Assembly: GCA_021325235.1 (NCBI GenBank)
Contig: JAJPHN010000040.1
Span: 62,001-126,000 of the forward strand
Origin: Terriglobia bacterium
Lineage (GTDB): Bacteria > Acidobacteriota > Terriglobia > Bryobacterales > Bryobacteraceae
Length of the DNA stretch: 64,000 bases
Direction: 5' to 3'
The notes below the pieces were generated by a model, which saw nothing but the letters and a program-made list of their open reading frames with translations, searched no databases and was not told the DNA's origin. This document shows, one piece after another, positions 10,706 to 29,194 of the stretch (positions are counted from its first letter, which is position 1; each line of letters opens with the position of its first letter). Both the position numbers and the translations under genes were made by a program.

Positions 10706-12283
10706 TTACGGCACGAACGCGAGGAACGCTTGCCCCCGATAGCGCTCCGGGACGAAAGCGATCCAGGCTTCTGAACGAGCGGTATGGGGCGGCATGAGCT
10801 CATCGGGCAAGCCGAAAGGCAAGGCGCGGCCCAGACCGATGATCGTGCCAGCAGGATTGACCAGAAGCACGCGTGTGGCACGAACAGGGGAACGGCCGAT
10901 CACTTCCAGTCCGGATGCGACGGGCAGAGTGCGTTCTATTTCGGCTGCGCGCATGTTGCGCGATTTGGCCATCTCGCCGAGAGACGAAGGCTCAGCGTAG
11001 ATCGATAGCCGCGAGTCTTTCAGTTCGGGAAGATAATGCGCGACGAACTCAGGGCTCGGAAAGATATGCCGTATCAGCTCCGGATCGAAAACATCGTTTT
11101 CGAGACTCAGCTGTGTAATCTGCGCAGCGACAAATGGCCGCAGGTTGAAGCTCCACCACCAGTTCAGTTTGCGGCTCGAGAGCATCAGCAGCGCCATTAC
11201 GATCAGTGGGAGTAGCGGCATCCAGGCGAAGCGCCGCTGGGCAGCGGCGTACAGAACGAGAATGAGCAGCGCCCCCCAACTCAGCATGACGGGCACCAGA
11301 TAACGAGAGGCTCTTGCGGCCGTGAAGGTCGTATCGCTCGGATCCATACGGCCGGCTGCAATCAACACGGCGGAGATGAGCGTGAACGTGTACCAGCCGC
11401 AGCTCACGATTCCCAAACGATTTCTCGAACGAATCGCAGCAGGCGCAAGCAGCAGGAAAACGGACACTGCTGCCCCACCGACGTATAAACCGAAGTGCGG
11501 CGATTTCATGCCGCCGAAAGGCATGCTTAAGAATGTAGCGACGAAGCCCGCTGTGTAGAACGGATGATAGAGCAGGTTCGTGAAGCTGCTATCGCCCACG
11601 AAGCGGTAACCCACGAAATAGAGTGCTATGGCAATGCAGCCGCTGAGCAACAAGGCAACCATTTGGCGGCGATTCAGCCGGAACAGAGCGGCGGCGGTCC
11701 AGAGCACGGGCCAGAGCAACAAGCCGTTACCGCAGGAATAAGTAGCCACTACGCCGCAGGCAATGGCGCCCGCGACGTACGCGTTACTCTGCGGTCCAAG
11801 CAGAAGGAGCGAGAGCAGCGCAGCAAGCGACATCAGGCTCCACTGAAGGAGAAACGGATCGCCGAGAGAGAGAGCCGAACCTTTCCAGCCGATCGCCGCG
11901 CTCGCGACGAGCACGATCAGGACGCGATCCGCTGGCGCGAGTTTGCGATCGCGAAGGATGGGACAGGCGAGTACCAGCCAGCTTGACACGTAACAGAGAC
12001 AGCTGACCACAACCGGCAACACGCGCCGCATGCGGAAAACGAGCACGTCGAAGGCGAAGACCAGATCGGGGAATACAATTCGGTGCTCGTTGTGCTGTTG
12101 CCAGAGATAACGGAAATCGAAGCGCTGAATCTGAGGGAGATGATAGACCACGCGCCAATAATCGGCGAACGGAATCTCCAGGTATAAAGCGTGCATGGCC
12201 GAAAAGTTTTCGAGCCAGTTTTTGAAGCAGAGCGCAGCGGCCAGAACGAGCGCCAGACCAGTGAAAACACTGCGTGCGCGCAA
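10706..12283 (-). CDS. Polytopic membrane protein of sugar module
   Basis: About 525 aa from TTG 12283; the frame is open to ATG 12364 but that would overlap the divergent epimerase gene. TM1 is [16 protein letters not shown], then [11 protein letters not shown] and a [13 protein letters not shown] motif in the first extracytoplasmic loop, then about nine more TM helices, and a soluble C-terminal domain of about 120 residues. The loop followed by many TMs resembles GT-C-type glycosyltransferases or polysaccharide membrane proteins, but I cannot assign a family. Divergent from the epimerase/GT2 genes, with 40 bp between. Confidence 0.7.
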
Positions 12284-12323
12284 GCCCGCGCTCGGCTCCG
12301 CACCCTGCGCTAGACTTCTTTTA

Positions 12324-13412
12324 GTGGCGAAAAAGGCTCTTGTAACTGGCTCGTGCGGTCTCATCGGATCCGAAGTCTGTCTTCATCTTGCACGCAATGG
12401 ATTTCAGATTTATGGCGTGGACAATAACGAGCGCTCGGTCTTTTTTGGACCCGAGGGTGACACGCGCTGGTCGTTGAAACGGCTGCAGACGCAGATCTCA
12501 GGCTATCGTCATTTCGACCTTGACATACGCAATCGCGAGGGCGTGCTGCGGCTGGTGGAAGAAGTGCGCCCGGATGCGATTGTGCACACCGCGGCGCAGC
12601 CCTCACACGATCGGGCGGCCGCAATTCCATTCGACGATTTCGACACGAACGCAGTGGGCACGCTGAACTTTCTGGAAGCAGCGCGGCGGTCGAGTCCGGA
12701 AGCGCCATTCGTCCACATGTCGACTAACAAAGTCTACGGCGACCGCCCGAATACGATCGCGCTGCGCGAGTTGGAAACGCGCTGGGATTACGCGGATGCG
12801 CAGTATGAGCATGGTATTCCGGAGACGTTTTCGATCGACCAGTCGAAGCATTCGCTGTTCGGCGCCTCGAAGGTGGCGAGCGACGTGATGGTGCAGGAAT
12901 ACGGCCGCTACTTCAACATGCCGACGTGCTGCCTGCGCGGCGGATGTCTGACGGGTCCGAATCATTCCGGTGTCGAGCTGCACGGTTTTCTGAGTTATCT
13001 GGTGCGCTGCAATCTGGAAGGACGCGAATACAAAGTTTTCGGCTACAAAGGCAAGCAGGTTCGGGACAACATTCATTCGGAAGACGTGGCGAACTTCATC
13101 GTGGAGTTTTGCGCGGCTCCACGAGCGGGTGAAGTCTACAACATCGGCGGCGGCAAGGACAATTCATGCTCGATTCTGGAGGCTTTCCAGATTGCCGAGG
13201 AGTTTAGCGGAAAGCCGCAGCGCTATGTCTACGTGGATCAGAACCGGATCGGCGACCACATCTGCTACTACAGCGACCTGCGCAAGATGAAGTCGCATTA
13301 TCCGAAATGGACGATTACGCGTTCGCTGCGGGACACGATTCGCGAAATCACTGAATCGTGGAACGCGAGGCTTTCCGTGAGTCAACCGGCATCGGCCGGC
13401 GCGCGCGGATGA
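12324..13412 (+). CDS. NAD-dependent epimerase, CDP-paratose/tyvelose 2-epimerase-like
   Basis: 362 aa from GTG 12324. The Rossmann motif [12 protein letters not shown] is at the N-terminus and MSTNKVYGD follows. The substrate region [14 protein letters not shown] and [15 protein letters not shown] match the CDP-tyvelose/paratose 2-epimerase branch of extended SDRs. In the YxxxK catalytic motif the tyrosine is replaced by Phe179 (LFGASK, Lys183). The gene overlaps the next SDR gene by 4 nt (ATGA), showing translational coupling. It acts on nucleotide sugars in the cytoplasm; exact substrate unknown. Confidence 0.85.
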
Positions 13413-14476
13413 AGCTGCTCATCACCGGCATCTGCGGTTTCGTGGGAAGCCGGCTAGCGGCGTATCTGCAGGAGATCTCTCCCGGCGTAGAGATCTTCGG
13501 CATCGATAATCTGCTGCGGCCAGGGTCGGAGATGAATCGCGAGGCGCTGGCGAAGCGAGGCGTTCGCTTCACGCATGGCGATCTGCGGCTGCGAAGCGAT
13601 GTCGATGCGCTTCCCAAGTGCGACTGGGTGATCGATGCGGCGGCGAATCCGAGCGTGCTGGCGGGAGTGGACGGGCGGTCGAGTCCGCGTCAGCTTTCGG
13701 AACACAATCTGGATGGGACACTGAACATTCTCGAATACTGCCGGGAACACAAGGCGGGCTTCGTATTGCTCAGCACGAGCCGTGTTTACTCGATCAAAGC
13801 GCTTGCTCAGTTGCCGGTCGAGGTGTGCGACCGCGCTTTCGAACTCAACCCGAGAGAGCTGCGCACAGCAGGCGTGAGCGCAGCGGGTATCAACGAGCGC
13901 TTTTCAACGGAGCCGCCGGTGTCGCTTTACGGAGCAACGAAGCTGGCTTCGGAGGTGATGGCACGCGAGTACGGGTTGACGTTCCAGTTTCCGGTGTGGA
14001 TCAATCGGTGCGGCGTGCTGGCAGGCGCGGGGCAGTTCGGCACGGCTGAGCAAGGGATCTTTTCGTACTGGCTGCATGCACACGCGGAACGGCGTCCGCT
14101 GCGCTACATCGGATTTGGCGGGCACGGCTACCAGGTGCGCGATGCGTTTCATCCGGCCGATCTTGCGGAACTGGTGAGCGCGCAGCTCAAACAGGATCCG
14201 CCAGAGGATCCGGTCTTTCATGTAAGCGGTGGGGCGGAGAACGCGATGTCACTGGCGCAACTGACCGCATGGTGCGATGAGCGTTTCGGCAAACACGTGC
14301 CGCAGCCGGATACGCGCCCGCGTCCGTTTGATATCCCCTGGCTGGTAATGGATCACACGCGAGCTGCCGAGCACTTCGATTGGCGGCCCAAGCGATCGCT
14401 TTACGCCATTCTGGATGAGATTTTCGATCACGTGCGGCATAATCCGGGATGGCTCGCCAAATGCGGAGCCGTGTAG
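13409..14476 (+). CDS. NAD-dependent epimerase, CDP-tyvelose epimerase-like (second copy)
   Basis: 355 aa. [15 protein letters not shown] is the nucleotide-binding motif, LLSTSRVYS the Ser/Thr motif, and LYGATK gives intact catalytic Tyr174 and Lys178. [18 protein letters not shown] and [20 protein letters not shown] again point to the tyvelose-epimerase branch. It starts inside the stop of the preceding SDR (ATGA overlap). The pair could act in sequence or as a heterodimer; the intact motif here contrasts with the Phe-substituted partner. Confidence 0.87.
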
Positions 14477-14482
14477 CAATCG

Positions 14483-15274
14483 ATGCCTGATTCGACAACG
14501 GCCCCGAACAAAGGCGAACCGCTGCAGTTGCTGAGCGTGGTGATTCCGGCGCGCGACGAGGAAGGGTGCATCGCGTCGACTGTCGAGCATCTGCATGTGG
14601 AGCTGCGCCTGCACAACATCCCGCATGAGATCGTGGTGGTCGACGACGGGAGCACGGACCATACCTGGGAGAGGCTGCAGGAGGCGCGTACACGCGTTCC
14701 GGTGCTGCGTCCGGTGGAGAATACTGGCCTGCACGGTTTCGGACGGGCCATCATATTCGGGCTGGAGCAGATGCGCGGCGATGCGGTGGTGATCATGATG
14801 GCCGATGAATCGGACGACGCGCGGGACGTGGTGCGCTACTGGCAGCTGCTCAACGAAGGCTGGGATTGCGTGTTCGGCTCACGTTTTGTCCGCGGCGGAG
14901 GCGTGATCGATTATCCGTGGCTGAAGATGCGAGTGAACCGGCTGGCGAATTTCTTCATCCGCGTGATGTTTCGCATCCGGCTGAACGACACGACGAACGC
15001 ATTCAAAGCGTATCGGCGTACAGTGATCGAAGGATGCAAGCCGCTGCTCTCGCCGCATTTCAATCTGACGGTCGAAATTCCGCTTAAGGCGATTGTGCGC
15101 GGCTATAGCTGGACGGTGATTCCGATTACCTGGCGCAATCGCAGAACGGGCGTGCCGAAGCTCAAGATTAAGGAGATGGGTAGCCGCTACCTGTTCATCT
15201 GCTTGTACGTGTGGCTCGAGAAATACTTCAGCCGCGGCGATTACCGGCGGCTGGATGAGGAACCGGGCCGGTAA
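14483..15274 (+). CDS. Family 2 glycosyltransferase (dolichyl-phosphate mannosyltransferase-like)
   Basis: 263 aa, a single GT-A domain: SVVIPARDEEGCIAST, IVVVDDGSTDHTWE, ENTGLHGFGRAI, and MMADESDD in the nucleotide-sugar/metal site. No long TM helix is evident, although the C-terminus (YLFICLYVWLEKYF) is amphipathic and could touch the membrane. Such enzymes typically transfer a sugar to polyprenyl phosphate. It begins 6 bp after the second epimerase, so it is the third gene of that operon. Confidence 0.88.
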   Translation: MPDSTTAPNKGEPLQLLSVVIPARDEEGCIASTVEHLHVELRLHNIPHEIVVVDDGSTDHTWERLQEARTRVPVLRPVENTGLHGFGRAIIFGLEQMRGDAVVIMMADESDDARDVVRYWQLLNEGWDCVFGSRFVRGGGVIDYPWLKMRVNRLANFFIRVMFRIRLNDTTNAFKAYRRTVIEGCKPLLSPHFNLTVEIPLKAIVRGYSWTVIPITWRNRRTGVPKLKIKEMGSRYLFICLYVWLEKYFSRGDYRRLDEEPGR

Positions 15275-24954: not shown

Positions 24955-25095
24955 CTTTGACTACATCGCGCAGCATCGCCTTCGGCGCCTTCAGACAAAC
25001 GATTCCTCCTGATTATGGTGGGATTGCTGCGGAACAATTCTCGCCACGCGGTGCGGCGGTTGGGATAGCTCTTGCATCGTCTTGAGGCGTTCAGA

Positions 25096-26319
25096 ATGGA
25101 AGAAGTGATCGTCGACCCACTTTCGGAGCCCGTTTCAGCACGGGTGAGAAGCCGTCCCTGGCCGGCGTGGCCGCATTTCGAAGCGGAAGACATCGCCGCC
25201 GTCGCGGACGTTTTGGCGTCTGGACGCGTGAATTACTGGACTGGAGAGCAGGGCCGGGCTTTCGAGCAGGAATTCGCAGCGTACACGCACACGCGATATG
25301 GAGTGGCTGTGGCGAACGGTACTCTCGCGCTCGAGCTAGCTCTGCGGGCGCTGGGAATCGGAACAGGAGACGAGGTTATCGTTCCGGCGCGCACGTTCTT
25401 CGGTTGCGTGACGTCCGTGGTGGCGTGCGGTGCTCGTCCGGTATTCGCCGATGTCGATCGCGATTCGCAGAACCTGACAGCCGCAACGATTGAAGCCGTT
25501 TTGACTCAAAGTACACGGGCTATTTTGGTGGTTCATTTGCAGGGCTGGCCGTGCGAGATGGATGAAATTCTCGCGCTTGCTCGCGCGCGCAAGCTGGCCG
25601 TGTTGGAAGACTGCGCGCACGCGCATGGCGCCGCGTACCGAGGCCGAACGGTTGGTTCACTCGGCGATATCGGCGCATTCTCTTTTTGTCAGGACAAGAT
25701 CATGACAACGGGCGGCGAAGGCGGCATGCTGGTGACGAACGACCCGGAGTTGTGGCGCAGGCTATGGTCCTACAAAGATCACGGGAAATCACACGAACTG
25801 GCGCATGCGGGCGAATCCAATGGGGCATTCCGCTGGGTCCACGAAAGCTTTGGCACGAACGCGCGACTTACCGAAATACAATCGGCGCTGGGGCGTAGGC
25901 TCCTTATGCGCCTGCCCGCGAACGTCCAGAAGCGGCGCGACAATGCGGCCTGCCTGCGAGAGGCCCTGGCGAACATAACCGCTTTGCGGATCCCGGAGCC
26001 TCCGGCGCATGTCGATCACGCTTACTACAAGCAGTACGCGTTTCTGAAGCCGCGGGGGCTGGCGCAGAATTGGACGCGGGATGATATCGTGAACGCGATT
26101 CGCGCGGAAGGCATCCCGTGCTCGTCGGGGATATGCAGCGAAGTGTATCGCGAGCAGGCCATTCCGGCGGAGTGGCGGCCACCGCAGCGATTGCCGGCTG
26201 CGGCGGAGTTGGGTGAGACGAGCCTTATGTTCCAGGTGCATCCAACACTCGACCGCAGCGACATGCTCGATACAGCAGCGGCGGTGCGAAAGGTCCTGGC
26301 GCGCGCATGCCGGAGTTAG
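25096..26319 (+). CDS. DegT/DnrJ/EryC1/StrS-family PLP aminotransferase
   Basis: 407 aa from ATG 25096, which has TTGAGG about 10 nt upstream. The fold-type I features are VANGTLALELALRALGIGTGDEVIVPA, VLEDCAHAHGA (PLP-binding Asp) and FCQDKIMTTGGEGGM with the Schiff-base Lys201. These enzymes aminate keto-sugar nucleotides, using glutamate. The 3' end overlaps a methyltransferase gene by 13 bp. It faces a dehydratase/epimerase pair, suggesting it works on the keto-sugar they make. Confidence 0.9.
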   Translation: MEEVIVDPLSEPVSARVRSRPWPAWPHFEAEDIAAVADVLASGRVNYWTGEQGRAFEQEFAAYTHTRYGVAVANGTLALELALRALGIGTGDEVIVPARTFFGCVTSVVACGARPVFADVDRDSQNLTAATIEAVLTQSTRAILVVHLQGWPCEMDEILALARARKLAVLEDCAHAHGAAYRGRTVGSLGDIGAFSFCQDKIMTTGGEGGMLVTNDPELWRRLWSYKDHGKSHELAHAGESNGAFRWVHESFGTNARLTEIQSALGRRLLMRLPANVQKRRDNAACLREALANITALRIPEPPAHVDHAYYKQYAFLKPRGLAQNWTRDDIVNAIRAEGIPCSSGICSEVYREQAIPAEWRPPQRLPAAAELGETSLMFQVHPTLDRSDMLDTAAAVRKVLARACRS

Positions 26320-27026
26320 ATCCGGTTGCCGCCTACGATCTGCTCGCTCCCTCGTTTTCTGCTGTTTCGAAAACGCGAGAACGCTATCTCCGAGCGATCG
26401 AAGACCTGATCGTTTCAGCCGCACCGAAGACCGCGGCATCGATGCTCGACATCGGCTCGGGCGACGGTCGCCGCGCATTGCAGATTGCGAGACAGCTTGG
26501 CATTAGGCGGGTCACGCTGCTGGAGCCGAGCGCAACCATGCGCGCACATTGGCCAGATGATGTTGAAGGCTGGTATGTGCGGGTGGAGGAACTCGGCTCG
26601 AAAGCCGGCAATTTCGATCTGATCACATGTCTATGGAATGTGCTCGGGCACGTGTTCCCGACTGAGGCGAGGCTACATGCTCTCGAACAGATGCGGCGCC
26701 TTTTAACGGCAAATGGGCGATTGTTCATGGACGTGAGCCACCGCTACAACATGCTCCATTATGGACGCGTGCGCACGTTGCTCCGCATGCTGCGGGACCG
26801 ATTTGGGCAGGACTGGCTGAGCGGCGATGTGAGTGTTCGCTGGGAAGTTGCGGGTGGAAACGTACACGCGAAAGGGCATGTCTTCACCGCGGCAGAACTT
26901 GAAGCGCTCGCAAGGGCGGCTGGACTGCAGATCGAGCACCGCTTCGTGGTCGATTATGCAACGGGTGAATTGCGGCGATCGAAGTATCAGGGTCATTTGC
27001 TTTACCAGTGTCGACGGAGTGCTTAG
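26307..27026 (+). CDS. Class I SAM-dependent methyltransferase
   Basis: 239 aa. Motif I is MLDIGSGDGRRALQIA, motif II LLEPSATM, and FDLITCLWNVLGHV the post-II acidic/hydrophobic strand. C-terminal ITAEL-like HVFTAAELEALARAAGL is typical of small-molecule methyltransferases. The target is unknown; from context a sugar or nucleotide-sugar. Its start overlaps the aminotransferase stop by 13 bp, and it converges with neuC 9 bp away. Confidence 0.85.
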   Translation: MPELDPVAAYDLLAPSFSAVSKTRERYLRAIEDLIVSAAPKTAASMLDIGSGDGRRALQIARQLGIRRVTLLEPSATMRAHWPDDVEGWYVRVEELGSKAGNFDLITCLWNVLGHVFPTEARLHALEQMRRLLTANGRLFMDVSHRYNMLHYGRVRTLLRMLRDRFGQDWLSGDVSVRWEVAGGNVHAKGHVFTAAELEALARAAGLQIEHRFVVDYATGELRRSKYQGHLLYQCRRSA

Positions 27027-27035
27027 TTTCGTGAC

Positions 27036-28178
27036 TTATGCCGTTTTGCGCAACAGTTCTTCGCCGAGCGGAACCGAGGCGAGCACTTTCACAATCCGGC
27101 GCGCCGCGTCACCATCTCCGTAGGGATTCGCCATGCCCGCCAGACTGCGGCGAAAGTCGGGATCACGCGCTTTGGCGATCGCCGCAAGAATTTGCGCTTC
27201 GTCTGCGTCGACCGTGAGTACGTTTTTGCTGCGCTCGCGCCCGCGCTGCCGGATGCCGATGTCCACGGCGGGAACACCGAACGACGCCGCTTCCATCACA
27301 CCGCTGCTCGAATTACCGGCAATGATGAATGCCTCGCGTAAGAGACTCCAATAGAGGACGGGATTCAGATTGACGAGTAAATGCGCACGCTTGTGTCTTT
27401 TCGTGAACGCACGCAGCCGCTCGATCAGATCACGGCTCCCGGCGTCGGCATTGGGATAGCAAAAAATGATTGGCTCCGGCAGTTTGGCGAGAGCGCGGAA
27501 CACAGCGTCCGCTTCGCGCGTGGTATCGCCGGCAATCGTCACCGGATGATAGGTGGCCAGGAGAAAGGGCACGCGCAGACTGAGACCTGTTTCGCGCTCA
27601 ATCTCGGCGCGAGATTTGAGCTTGGTGCGGCGGAGATGATCGAGTGAGGGAGCACCGGCGCGATGTACGCGCCACTCGGCCTCGCCCATAGAGATAACCC
27701 GCTGGCGCGCGGCTTCCGTTGAAGTGAAATGCAGATGGCTCAGCTTGGTTAAGGCATTGCGGACGGCATCATCAATCGCGCCTTCGGTGATTTCGCCACC
27801 TTCAATATGGGCAACGGGAATGCGCAAAGCAAGTGCGACCGAAGCGGGCGCCAGCATCTCGTAGCGGTCCGCAATTAACAACAGCAGATCGGGCCGGAGC
27901 GTAGCGAGGTAGTCGGCCAGGCTCAAGGTCGCGATGCCGATTGTCTTTGCCATCGCGACGTCGGTATTGGAATCGAGCAGGCACTCGATCCGCGCGGCGA
28001 TCCTGAAGCCATCCTGCTCGACCTCGCTCACGGGCATTCCGAAAGTAGGACTGAGCTGCGGACCCATGGCGATCAGGTGAAGCTCGAGTTCCGGATGCGC
28101 CTCGATCTCGCGCAGGACCCAATACAAATGCGAGTAATCGGCGCGCGAACTGGTCACGACGGCGATTTTTCTCATCAT
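27036..28178 (-). CDS. neuC: UDP-N-acetylglucosamine 2-epimerase (hydrolysing), NeuC/LegG type
   Basis: 380 aa from ATG 28178, which overlaps the stop of the upstream gene (ATGA). Features: KIAVVTSSRADYSHLYWVL at the N-terminus, LIADRYEMLAPASVAL, VAHIEGGEITEGAIDDAVR, and the nucleotide site IIAGNSSSGVMEAASFGVPAVDIGIRQ split over two strands. This GT-B-fold enzyme releases UDP and epimerises C2, giving ManNAc or a 2,4-diamino hexose for nonulosonic acids. LegG-like activity on a diacetamido sugar is as likely as plain NeuC. Confidence 0.88.
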   Translation of the reverse strand: MMRKIAVVTSSRADYSHLYWVLREIEAHPELELHLIAMGPQLSPTFGMPVSEVEQDGFRIAARIECLLDSNTDVAMAKTIGIATLSLADYLATLRPDLLLLIADRYEMLAPASVALALRIPVAHIEGGEITEGAIDDAVRNALTKLSHLHFTSTEAARQRVISMGEAEWRVHRAGAPSLDHLRRTKLKSRAEIERETGLSLRVPFLLATYHPVTIAGDTTREADAVFRALAKLPEPIIFCYPNADAGSRDLIERLRAFTKRHKRAHLLVNLNPVLYWSLLREAFIIAGNSSSGVMEAASFGVPAVDIGIRQRGRERSKNVLTVDADEAQILAAIAKARDPDFRRSLAGMANPYGDGDAARRIVKVLASVPLGEELLRKTA

Positions 28179-29194
28179 TGCGTCTCGTCCAGCACGGCTT
28201 GACTCGGAACATACTCGGGTACGAGTTCCCGGAGTCCTTCGAGCAACGCGCTGCAATCGCCCTGCTCCAGAGCGGCGCGTAAGCGAGCAACGCTTTCAGC
28301 ACTTTTCTCGGCCGAAAGGGTACGGCCGTCGACCACGGCGAGGCCACACTGTAGCTGTTTTTCAATCGCTTCATCGGAAGCTACGAACGATTCGGTCAAC
28401 TTCTCACCCGGGCGCAAGCCGATGAACGTTATTTCAGCTTGCGGGGACAGGGAACGAGCTAAATCGACAATTCGCAGCGGCGCGGAACGCGGCGGAATCA
28501 ATACGCGCCCGTTCACTTGCGCTTTAAGCGCCTCACGAATGAATGCGACTGTTTCGTCGAGCGTGAAGAACCAGCGGCTCGCGTCCGGGTGAGTCAGCGT
28601 GAGCGGTGCGCGATCGCGCAACTGCTGCTCAAAGGTCGGCAGCACGCTGCCGGTGGACCCGAGCACATTACCGAGACGAATGGCATTGACACGAAATCCG
28701 GGAGCATCGAGAGAGAGCGCCAACAGTTCGGCCGCACGTTTGGATGCGCCCAGGATGCTGTGCGGCTCAACGGCTTTATCAGTTGAAACGAGCAGAAACT
28801 GTCCGACGCCGGCCAAGCGCGCCTCATGAACCAGCTCGAACGTCGCAATCGCGTTATTGAGCAAAGTGGCCTCGATCTGGCGCTCCAGCATAACCACATT
28901 CTTATAAGCCGCGGCATGGATGATGCCGCCGGGCTGATACCGTCTGAGGAGCGAGCGCATGGCTGCGCGATCGGCAACATTGGCGAGCAGCAGACGGTAC
29001 TTCGCGGTATGTGCGACAAGCGAACGATCGAGTTCGATGAGACCCTGTTCGGATTGATCGAGTAGCAGCAGCGGGGTGTGAGGAGATGATGCGAGCGCGC
29101 GGGCGAGTCCGGCACCGATAAATCCCGCGGCACCAGTAATGAGCAGGCAGCGGCTATCATCCGGCTTACCCGCAAGGTTCCGTTCAGTGCTCAA
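28175..29194 (-). CDS. CapD/FlaA1-type nucleotide-sugar 4,6-dehydratase
   Basis: About 339 aa from TTG 29194, chosen to avoid overlap with the divergent peptidase gene. CLLITGAAGFIGAGLARAL is the NAD(P) motif, then HAAAYKNVVMLE and VSTDKAVEPHSILGASKRAAE. In this family the YxxxK tyrosine is often Met; here it is Leu (LGASK). RLGNVLGSTGSVLPTF and FIGLRPGEKLTE are typical of UDP-GlcNAc 4,6-dehydratases (PglF/PseB/LegB). It makes a 4-keto-6-deoxy sugar. Coupled to neuC by an ATGA overlap. Confidence 0.85.
   Translation of the reverse strand: MSTERNLAGKPDDSRCLLITGAAGFIGAGLARALASSPHTPLLLLDQSEQGLIELDRSLVAHTAKYRLLLANVADRAAMRSLLRRYQPGGIIHAAAYKNVVMLERQIEATLLNNAIATFELVHEARLAGVGQFLLVSTDKAVEPHSILGASKRAAELLALSLDAPGFRVNAIRLGNVLGSTGSVLPTFEQQLRDRAPLTLTHPDASRWFFTLDETVAFIREALKAQVNGRVLIPPRSAPLRIVDLARSLSPQAEITFIGLRPGEKLTESFVASDEAIEKQLQCGLAVVDGRTLSAEKSAESVARLRAALEQGDCSALLEGLRELVPEYVPSQAVLDETQ

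Follow-up and report, generated by a model that had tools for sequence, protein, structure and literature searches.

The window, a 64-kb stretch of a Terriglobia bacterium contig (JAJPHN010000040.1, 64,000 nucleotides), contains at 25096-29194 a four-gene block centred on a hydrolysing sugar-nucleotide epimerase of the NeuC/LegG type. Searches and translations confirmed all four genes, two on each strand:

25096..26319, plus strand: DegT/DnrJ/EryC1/StrS aminotransferase of the Pcryo_0638 kind, a probable 4-aminotransferase acting on a UDP-4-keto-6-deoxy-N-acetylhexosamine (PF01041, 7l7x)
26307..27026, plus strand: class I methyltransferase dependent on S-adenosylmethionine, a candidate amino-sugar N-methyltransferase (PF13489, Methyltransf_23)
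27036..28178, minus strand: NeuC/LegG-type hydrolysing UDP-sugar 2-epimerase of a NeuB-less subfamily (TIGR03568, tree position and residue signature)
28175..29194, minus strand: short CapD/PglF-type UDP-N-acetylglucosamine (UDP-GlcNAc) 4,6-dehydratase (PF02719, 5bju)

As the initial annotation had described, two coupled pairs converge. The DegT and methyltransferase genes overlap by 13 bp, the TGA of the CapD gene overlaps the ATG of NeuC (28178) as ATGA on the minus strand, and the stop codons of the two pairs lie 9 bp apart. The DegT open reading frame spans 25072-26319 with an ATG at 25096, and the CapD gene may begin either at the TTG at 29194 or at a more upstream GTG. Family scores are 427 bits for NeuC (TIGR03568, cut-off 236), 319 bits for DegT (PF01041), 222 bits for CapD (PF02719), and 52 bits for the methyltransferase, a generic match to PF13489. 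The flanking genes encode a hybrid histidine kinase and an M28 peptidase, so the four-gene block stands alone, and the window shows little variation in GC content (0.57-0.62 in steps of 2 kb). By family searches, none of the four genes is a NeuB-like synthase, a CMP-transferase, or an acetyltransferase, in agreement with the initial annotation that these nonulosonate steps are missing at the locus.

The window NeuC belongs to a distinct, conserved, mostly NeuB-less subfamily. NeuC-like matches (E ≤ 1e-40) were collected from a sample of 396 genomes of the phylum, and the genomes holding one were searched for NeuB (E ≤ 1e-30), with proximity set at 5 kb and split matches counted once. This yielded 69 NeuC-like matches in 61 genomes, among them 21 subfamily members: the window protein, 18 others at 58-68% identity to it, and two matched in two pieces each (G139 and G177, 55-68%). 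NeuB lies within 5 kb of none of the 21 and is absent at this threshold from 17 of their genomes; a NeuB-family match occurs in the other four, in three of them above 200 bits. The remaining 48 NeuC-like matches, in 41 genomes, all share their genome with NeuB, which lies within 5 kb of 35 of them; the 48 include two proteins sharing the subfamily signature with no adjoining NeuB (G603 and G451), which works against the claim. A second set of 36 genome entries, overlapping the phylum sample in part and containing one genome twice (G030 and G060, whose matches are identical), gave NeuB above 200 bits in 4 of 25 distinct subfamily genomes (G030/G060, G062, G066, and G071) and in all 10 of the genomes included for their other NeuCs. 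The relatives therefore do not bear out the possibility that NeuC orthologues always accompany neuB and that this locus is simply rearranged.

The phylogeny that had been suggested for NeuC separates the same group. In a tree of 68 rows, built by a short search with support from the Shimodaira-Hasegawa-like approximate likelihood ratio test (SH-aLRT) and no bootstrap, 46 subfamily members fall on one side of a branch with support 88, which rises to 99 once L129 and L130 (47-49% identical) join them. Because the 46 were selected for resemblance to the window NeuC, some of their uniformity is to be expected. Identity to the window protein is 57-69% across families of the phylum, and the subfamily also occurs in a bin titled Gammaproteobacteria (L046, 57%). 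In the two split matches (G139 C1:3262821-3264119 and G177 C1:913734-914978), both pieces lie in one open frame, as if tens of residues had been inserted.

Three positions near the active site characterize the subfamily, numbered on the translation of 27039-28181 (Ala104 is residue 103 if counted from the ATG at 28178):

27870..27872, minus strand: Ala104, adjoining the catalytic Asp at the position of human GNE Gly111; all 46 members have Ala, all 20 other sequences Gly
27801..27803, minus strand: Glu127, equivalent to GNE Glu134; Glu in 46 of 46 members and in human GNE, His or Gln in 16 of 20 others
27756..27758, minus strand: Asn142, at the position of human GNE His148; all 46 members have Asn, all 20 others His

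These counts leave out one short (L080), two partial (L097 and L098), and two intermediate sequences (L129 and L130), the last two of which also carry Ala, Glu, and Asn. The equivalents of GNE Asp112, Arg113, Asp143, Arg147, His220, and Ser302 are kept in the subfamily, and those of Asp112, Arg113, Asp143, and Ser302 are conserved in at least 97% of the 68 rows, the window NeuC included. PMC4793188 describes Gly111 as strictly conserved across enzymes of both the hydrolysing and the non-hydrolysing kind and as positioning the catalytic Asp112, proposes that Glu134 contacts the sugar 4-OH, and gives Arg113 and Ser302 as marks of hydrolysing enzymes. Among these residues, only Gly111 is altered. 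The protein thus resembles the NeuC, LegG, and GNE epimerases in its family score, well above the cut-off, and in most catalytic residues (Asp112, Arg113, Glu134, Asp143, His220, and Ser302 all matched), and departs from them by a one-residue change at the glycine, by the replaced histidine, and by the lack of NeuB within 5 kb in the phylum sample. Its best solved structures are 5xvs/5zlr, the hydrolyzing GDP/UDP-N,N'-diacetylbacillosamine (UDP-diNAcBac) 2-epimerase, and 4zht, the GNE epimerase. The uniform change of the loop glycine and of the histidine near the catalytic Asp might mark an inactive relic, but the residues for catalysis and phosphate binding are intact, and identity to the window protein has stayed at 57-69% across families of the phylum, which makes this reading highly improbable.

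The NeuB and CMP-transferase searches called for in the initial annotation were run on the whole source genome (5.03 Mb, 95.7% complete, 4.8% contamination). Neither NeuB/LegI (best TIGR03569 match ~24 bits, cut-off 400) nor NeuA/LegF was found, PF02348 matching KdsB and GlmU only. Legionaminic synthesis employs LegI and LegF (PMC6137143), and with no gene of either type found the route cannot be completed by recognisable genes in this genome. On these grounds the dispersed pathway offered in the initial annotation was set low, and we consider it unlikely. A version in which an unrecognised enzyme condensing phosphoenolpyruvate, such as a paralogue of 3-deoxy-D-arabino-heptulosonate 7-phosphate (DAHP) synthase, acts with an unrecognised CMP-transferase could draw on four DAHP synthase genes (contigs C42, C4, C43, and C7, one of them a contig of only 7,980 bases), which are homologous to NeuB and account for all four weak PF03102 matches in the genome. 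All four nevertheless exceed the DAHP synthase cut-off of NF006421 (430-501 against 335 bits), the only CMP-transferase domains are those of KdsB and GlmU, and the same NeuB search found the gene in every genome with one of the 48 other NeuC-like matches, so that this version has little probability. Elsewhere in the phylum, one genome holds NeuB together with acetyltransferase-, DegT-, and CapD-like genes, by similarity (L163).

The genes around NeuC were compared across 48 subfamily loci with distinct NeuC sequences (L041 was dropped as a copy of L152), some of which have short flanks. A DegT gene lies within 2.5 kb of NeuC in 40 loci (one of the window type, 39 of a different, usual type), a CapD gene is nearby in 33, and a methyltransferase of the window family in 6. 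NeuB appears in none of the 48, nor does a PglD-type acetyltransferase within 9.5 kb or the available flank. The 33 loci whose flanks reach 6 kb or more on each side repeat this pattern (DegT 29, CapD 26, methyltransferase 5, NeuB 0, acetyltransferase 0). Chance grouping of these genes is rejected, because CapD accompanies NeuC in 33 of 48 and DegT in 40 of 48 loci. The exact form of the convergent four-gene layout was not seen in the other loci examined; five relatives (L027, L032, L104, L105, and L106) show a variant in which CapD, NeuC, and the usual DegT converge on the methyltransferase. A link of the cassette to ordinary glycan clusters was also considered and rejected, given the non-glycan flanks and the lack of a glycosyltransferase in the neighbour families common to at least three of 25 loci (judged by eye, with Pfam for nine proteins). 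Separately from the locus, two NAD-dependent sugar epimerase-like genes and a glycosyltransferase stand in a row at window positions 12195-15274 (by eye).

The initial annotation matched the dehydratase, aminotransferase, and epimerase to steps of legionaminic-type synthesis. The families do match by sequence those of the dehydratase, C4 aminotransferase, and hydrolysing 2-epimerase of the LegB-LegC-LegH-LegG-LegI-LegF pathway; the CapD protein, however, scores only 21 bits on the LegB model (TIGR04180) and 127 of 408 bits on the PseB model (TIGR03589). The locus differs from that pathway in that no LegI (NeuB) or LegF-type gene was found in the source genome and in the added methyltransferase, which is present in 6 of the 48 loci. 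By sequence (PF02719 and 5bju), the CapD protein is a UDP-GlcNAc 4,6-dehydratase of the LegB/PglF type. Its best solved structure, at 175 bits, is 5bju, the WlaL protein, which we take to be PglF. It keeps the Thr-Asp-Lys motif; the next residue, Met in 5bju, is Leu in the window protein and Met in the other 12 of 13 cassette rows aligned (L107 was left out).

The window DegT has its best solved structure in 7l7x (432 bits), which is Pcryo_0638, a 4-aminotransferase for UDP-4-keto-6-deoxy-GlcNAc (PMC8040287). Pcryo_0638 Thr60, Asp156, Ser180, Gln183, Lys185, and Asn239 are matched in the window protein (by eye, with a four-residue offset), and Tyr229 is replaced by Phe. Its SFCQDK motif appears to hold the lysine for pyridoxal phosphate and the equivalent of Gln183 (by eye), the residue that binds the C2 acetamido group in Pcryo_0638 according to the same paper. 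Dehydratase and aminotransferase thus lie nearest the enzymes of UDP-diNAcBac synthesis (PglF-PglE-PglD; Pcryo_0612/0638/0637), but the block has neither the acetyltransferase nor the PglC-type transferase of such systems, and an epimerase and a methyltransferase stand instead.

The window DegT differs from the usual cassette DegT (36% identical), a type that is at least 50% identical in 35 of the 40 carrying loci and lower in five, and that is not in the window block; its best match in the source genome (43%) is on another contig. Among 200 genomes of the class, window-type DegT proteins occur in seven others (L099-L103, L109, and L110; 55-61% identity), with no NeuC of this subfamily in the DNA read around them (L110 is a short contig). 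A PglD-type acetyltransferase gene lies by four of the seven (L099, L103, L109, and L110), Pfam-confirmed and with a PglC-type transferase in L099 and L103, and a CapD-type gene by three (L100, L101, and L109). The low identity and the NeuC-free settings of these relatives would suit two unrelated pairs, a CapD-NeuC cassette that has lost its aminotransferase beside an independent DegT-methyltransferase pair. The methyltransferase family, though, adjoins the cassette in the same five relatives that show the variant layout, and since it is common to them, a swap of the usual DegT for another type that now overlaps the methyltransferase explains the window with fewer coincidences; we give two independent pairs a small chance, somewhat below that of the dispersed pathway with unrecognised enzymes.

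The methyltransferase is tied to the cassette. Its orthologues occur in 3 of the 200 class genomes (E ≤ 1e-20, the source included), in each case adjoining a NeuC cassette, and the five orthologues are 47-51% identical to the window copy. The predicted structure makes it a candidate amino-sugar N-methyltransferase: the nearest folds include CypM, NmbA, CcbJ, TylM1, DesVI, and others at template-modelling scores (TM) of ~0.5, matches that are weak evidence given the shallow model (three sequences; mean predicted local distance difference test, pLDDT, 68). Known amino-sugar N-methyltransferases (TylM1, DesVI, CalS10, and KedS8) are among the 50 listed nearest folds, at 17-19% identity and TM ~0.5, but many other methyltransferases score alike or better.

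From these sequence comparisons, we propose that the locus is a NeuB-less, LegG-like module that may produce a free (methyl)amino mannosamine-type sugar and not a nonulosonic acid, a reading to which we assign a probability of about 0.43. CapD would convert UDP-GlcNAc to UDP-4-keto-6-deoxy-GlcNAc, and DegT would aminate C4 to give UDP-2-acetamido-4-amino-2,4,6-trideoxyglucose (UDP-QuiNAc4N). Where the legionaminic pathway would acetylate the new 4-amine, the methyltransferase would probably transfer a methyl group to it, and NeuC would hydrolyse and epimerise at C2, releasing 2-acetamido-4-(methyl)amino-2,4,6-trideoxy-mannose. This free sugar or a derivative would be the product, with no condensation to phosphoenolpyruvate. 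We infer the substrates, the order of the steps, N- as opposed to O-methylation, and the release and fate of the sugar. Of the two options in the initial annotation, we favour a modified amino sugar that the epimerase releases, because the NeuC subfamily is NeuB-less, the DegT lies nearest Pcryo_0638, and the methyltransferase is tied to the cassette; the release step itself stays putative.

Several observations weigh against this proposal. The three NeuB-family genes above 200 bits in genomes of subfamily members are real, and the acetyltransferase (LegH) search, made with one PglD-type query around the 48 loci, did not extend to the rest of the source genome. CapD is not nearby in 15 of the 48 loci, some of them for short flanks, and in seven (L051, L142, L148, L151, L155, L156, and L157, two of which have one flank under 3 kb) neither CapD nor DegT is near NeuC. 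The usual cassette DegT (39 of 48 loci) has perosamine synthase as its closest match and carries Pro at the position of Pcryo_0638 Gln183 (by eye), so the substrate read from the window DegT may not fit the subfamily. One relative of the window DegT (L102:3908-9864, genome G223) is divergent from PseB and stands beside another DegT, PseG, and NeuB/PseI, a pseudaminic-type set, and the window DegT type is therefore not tied to D-gluco sugars. Glu127 also suits a 4-OH sugar, as in GNE, and N-methylation rests on a shallow model and a fold common to many methyltransferases, not N-methyltransferases alone.

The NeuC-only loci indicate that NeuC may persist without partners and that its substrate could be plain UDP-GlcNAc; they make the best case that its substrate is different or broader. 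NeuC would then carry out another reaction, for example UDP-GlcNAc to free N-acetylmannosamine, with CapD and DegT making UDP-QuiNAc4N separately in a looser functional set. The Glu shared with GNE, a UDP-GlcNAc enzyme, and the change at the glycine called strictly conserved in PMC4793188 would also fit. Set against this are the frequent company of CapD and DegT at subfamily loci and the overlapping stop codon of CapD and start codon of NeuC in the window, and we hold it to be unlikely, if the least so of the alternatives.

Two further gene families recur around the cassette: an amidase within 8 kb of NeuC in 25 of the 48 loci, and a TPR/FG-GAP/ASPIC protein within 9.5 kb in 28 (21 and 20, respectively, of the 33 loci with longer flanks). 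The cassette amidases span families, at 37 to 69% identity to that of L030. In one family (f11), all 12 genomes of the 396-genome sample that carry the NeuC subfamily also hold a close amidase (at least 60%), although the copy in G624 is on another contig; two more f11 genomes without this NeuC hold an amidase at 60% or above and three hold one at 53-57%, a match inflated by shared ancestry and drawn from a sample whose total of f11 genomes is not fully shown. Counts of the ASPIC domain (PF07593), a common one, are 3 to 30 per genome in 29 genomes, so chance neighbours within 9.5 kb should be uncommon (no formal test). A functional link of both proteins to the cassette is likely. The window locus has no amidase or ASPIC neighbour; on contig C41 of the source genome (~408-413 kb; L183:8735-13257), an amidase 55% identical to the G163 cassette amidase is divergent from a 1044-residue TPR/FG-GAP protein, in which Pfam gave no ASPIC domain at E ≤ 1e-4; this arrangement resembles the amidase-TPR/FG-GAP pairs that adjoin the cassette in many relatives. 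In three loci (L030:1-7336, L152:13140-19501, and L153:13286-19500), the ASPIC protein is followed by asparagine-synthase-like, radical SAM, and halogenase-like flavoprotein genes, and in six (L036, L040, L044, L051, L146, and L150) a tetrahydrodipicolinate succinyltransferase-like gene lies 1-4 kb from NeuC (by eye).

Attack of a 4-amine on C1 of an aldose is ring-closure chemistry that yields a nitrogen ring. As no acetyl group would block the 4-amine of the released aldose, its amine or methylamine might close in this way into a five-membered 2-acetamido pyrrolidine or pyrroline; we offer such an iminosugar product as a long shot. The amidase would then trim or build on the product, with the TPR/FG-GAP/ASPIC protein as an extracellular partner.

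To our knowledge, hydrolysing 2-epimerases are known as feeders of NeuB, and a literature search covering few subscription-journal papers returned no title on a NeuB-less NeuC in Acidobacteria. A conserved subfamily mostly in genomes without NeuB, altered at a glycine reported as strictly conserved, points to another use for the free sugar. The window locus is a variant member of this subfamily, and the many relatives with a similar truncated set suggest that an unknown free amino sugar is made. In a genome, the neuC gene by itself should not be taken to indicate sialic or legionaminic acid, and the subfamily offers a testable enzyme with defined partner genes. Were the iminosugar reading correct, the module would lead to iminosugars, or to a new free amino-sugar metabolite, by way of a hydrolysing epimerase of sugar nucleotides that works apart from nonulosonic acid synthesis.

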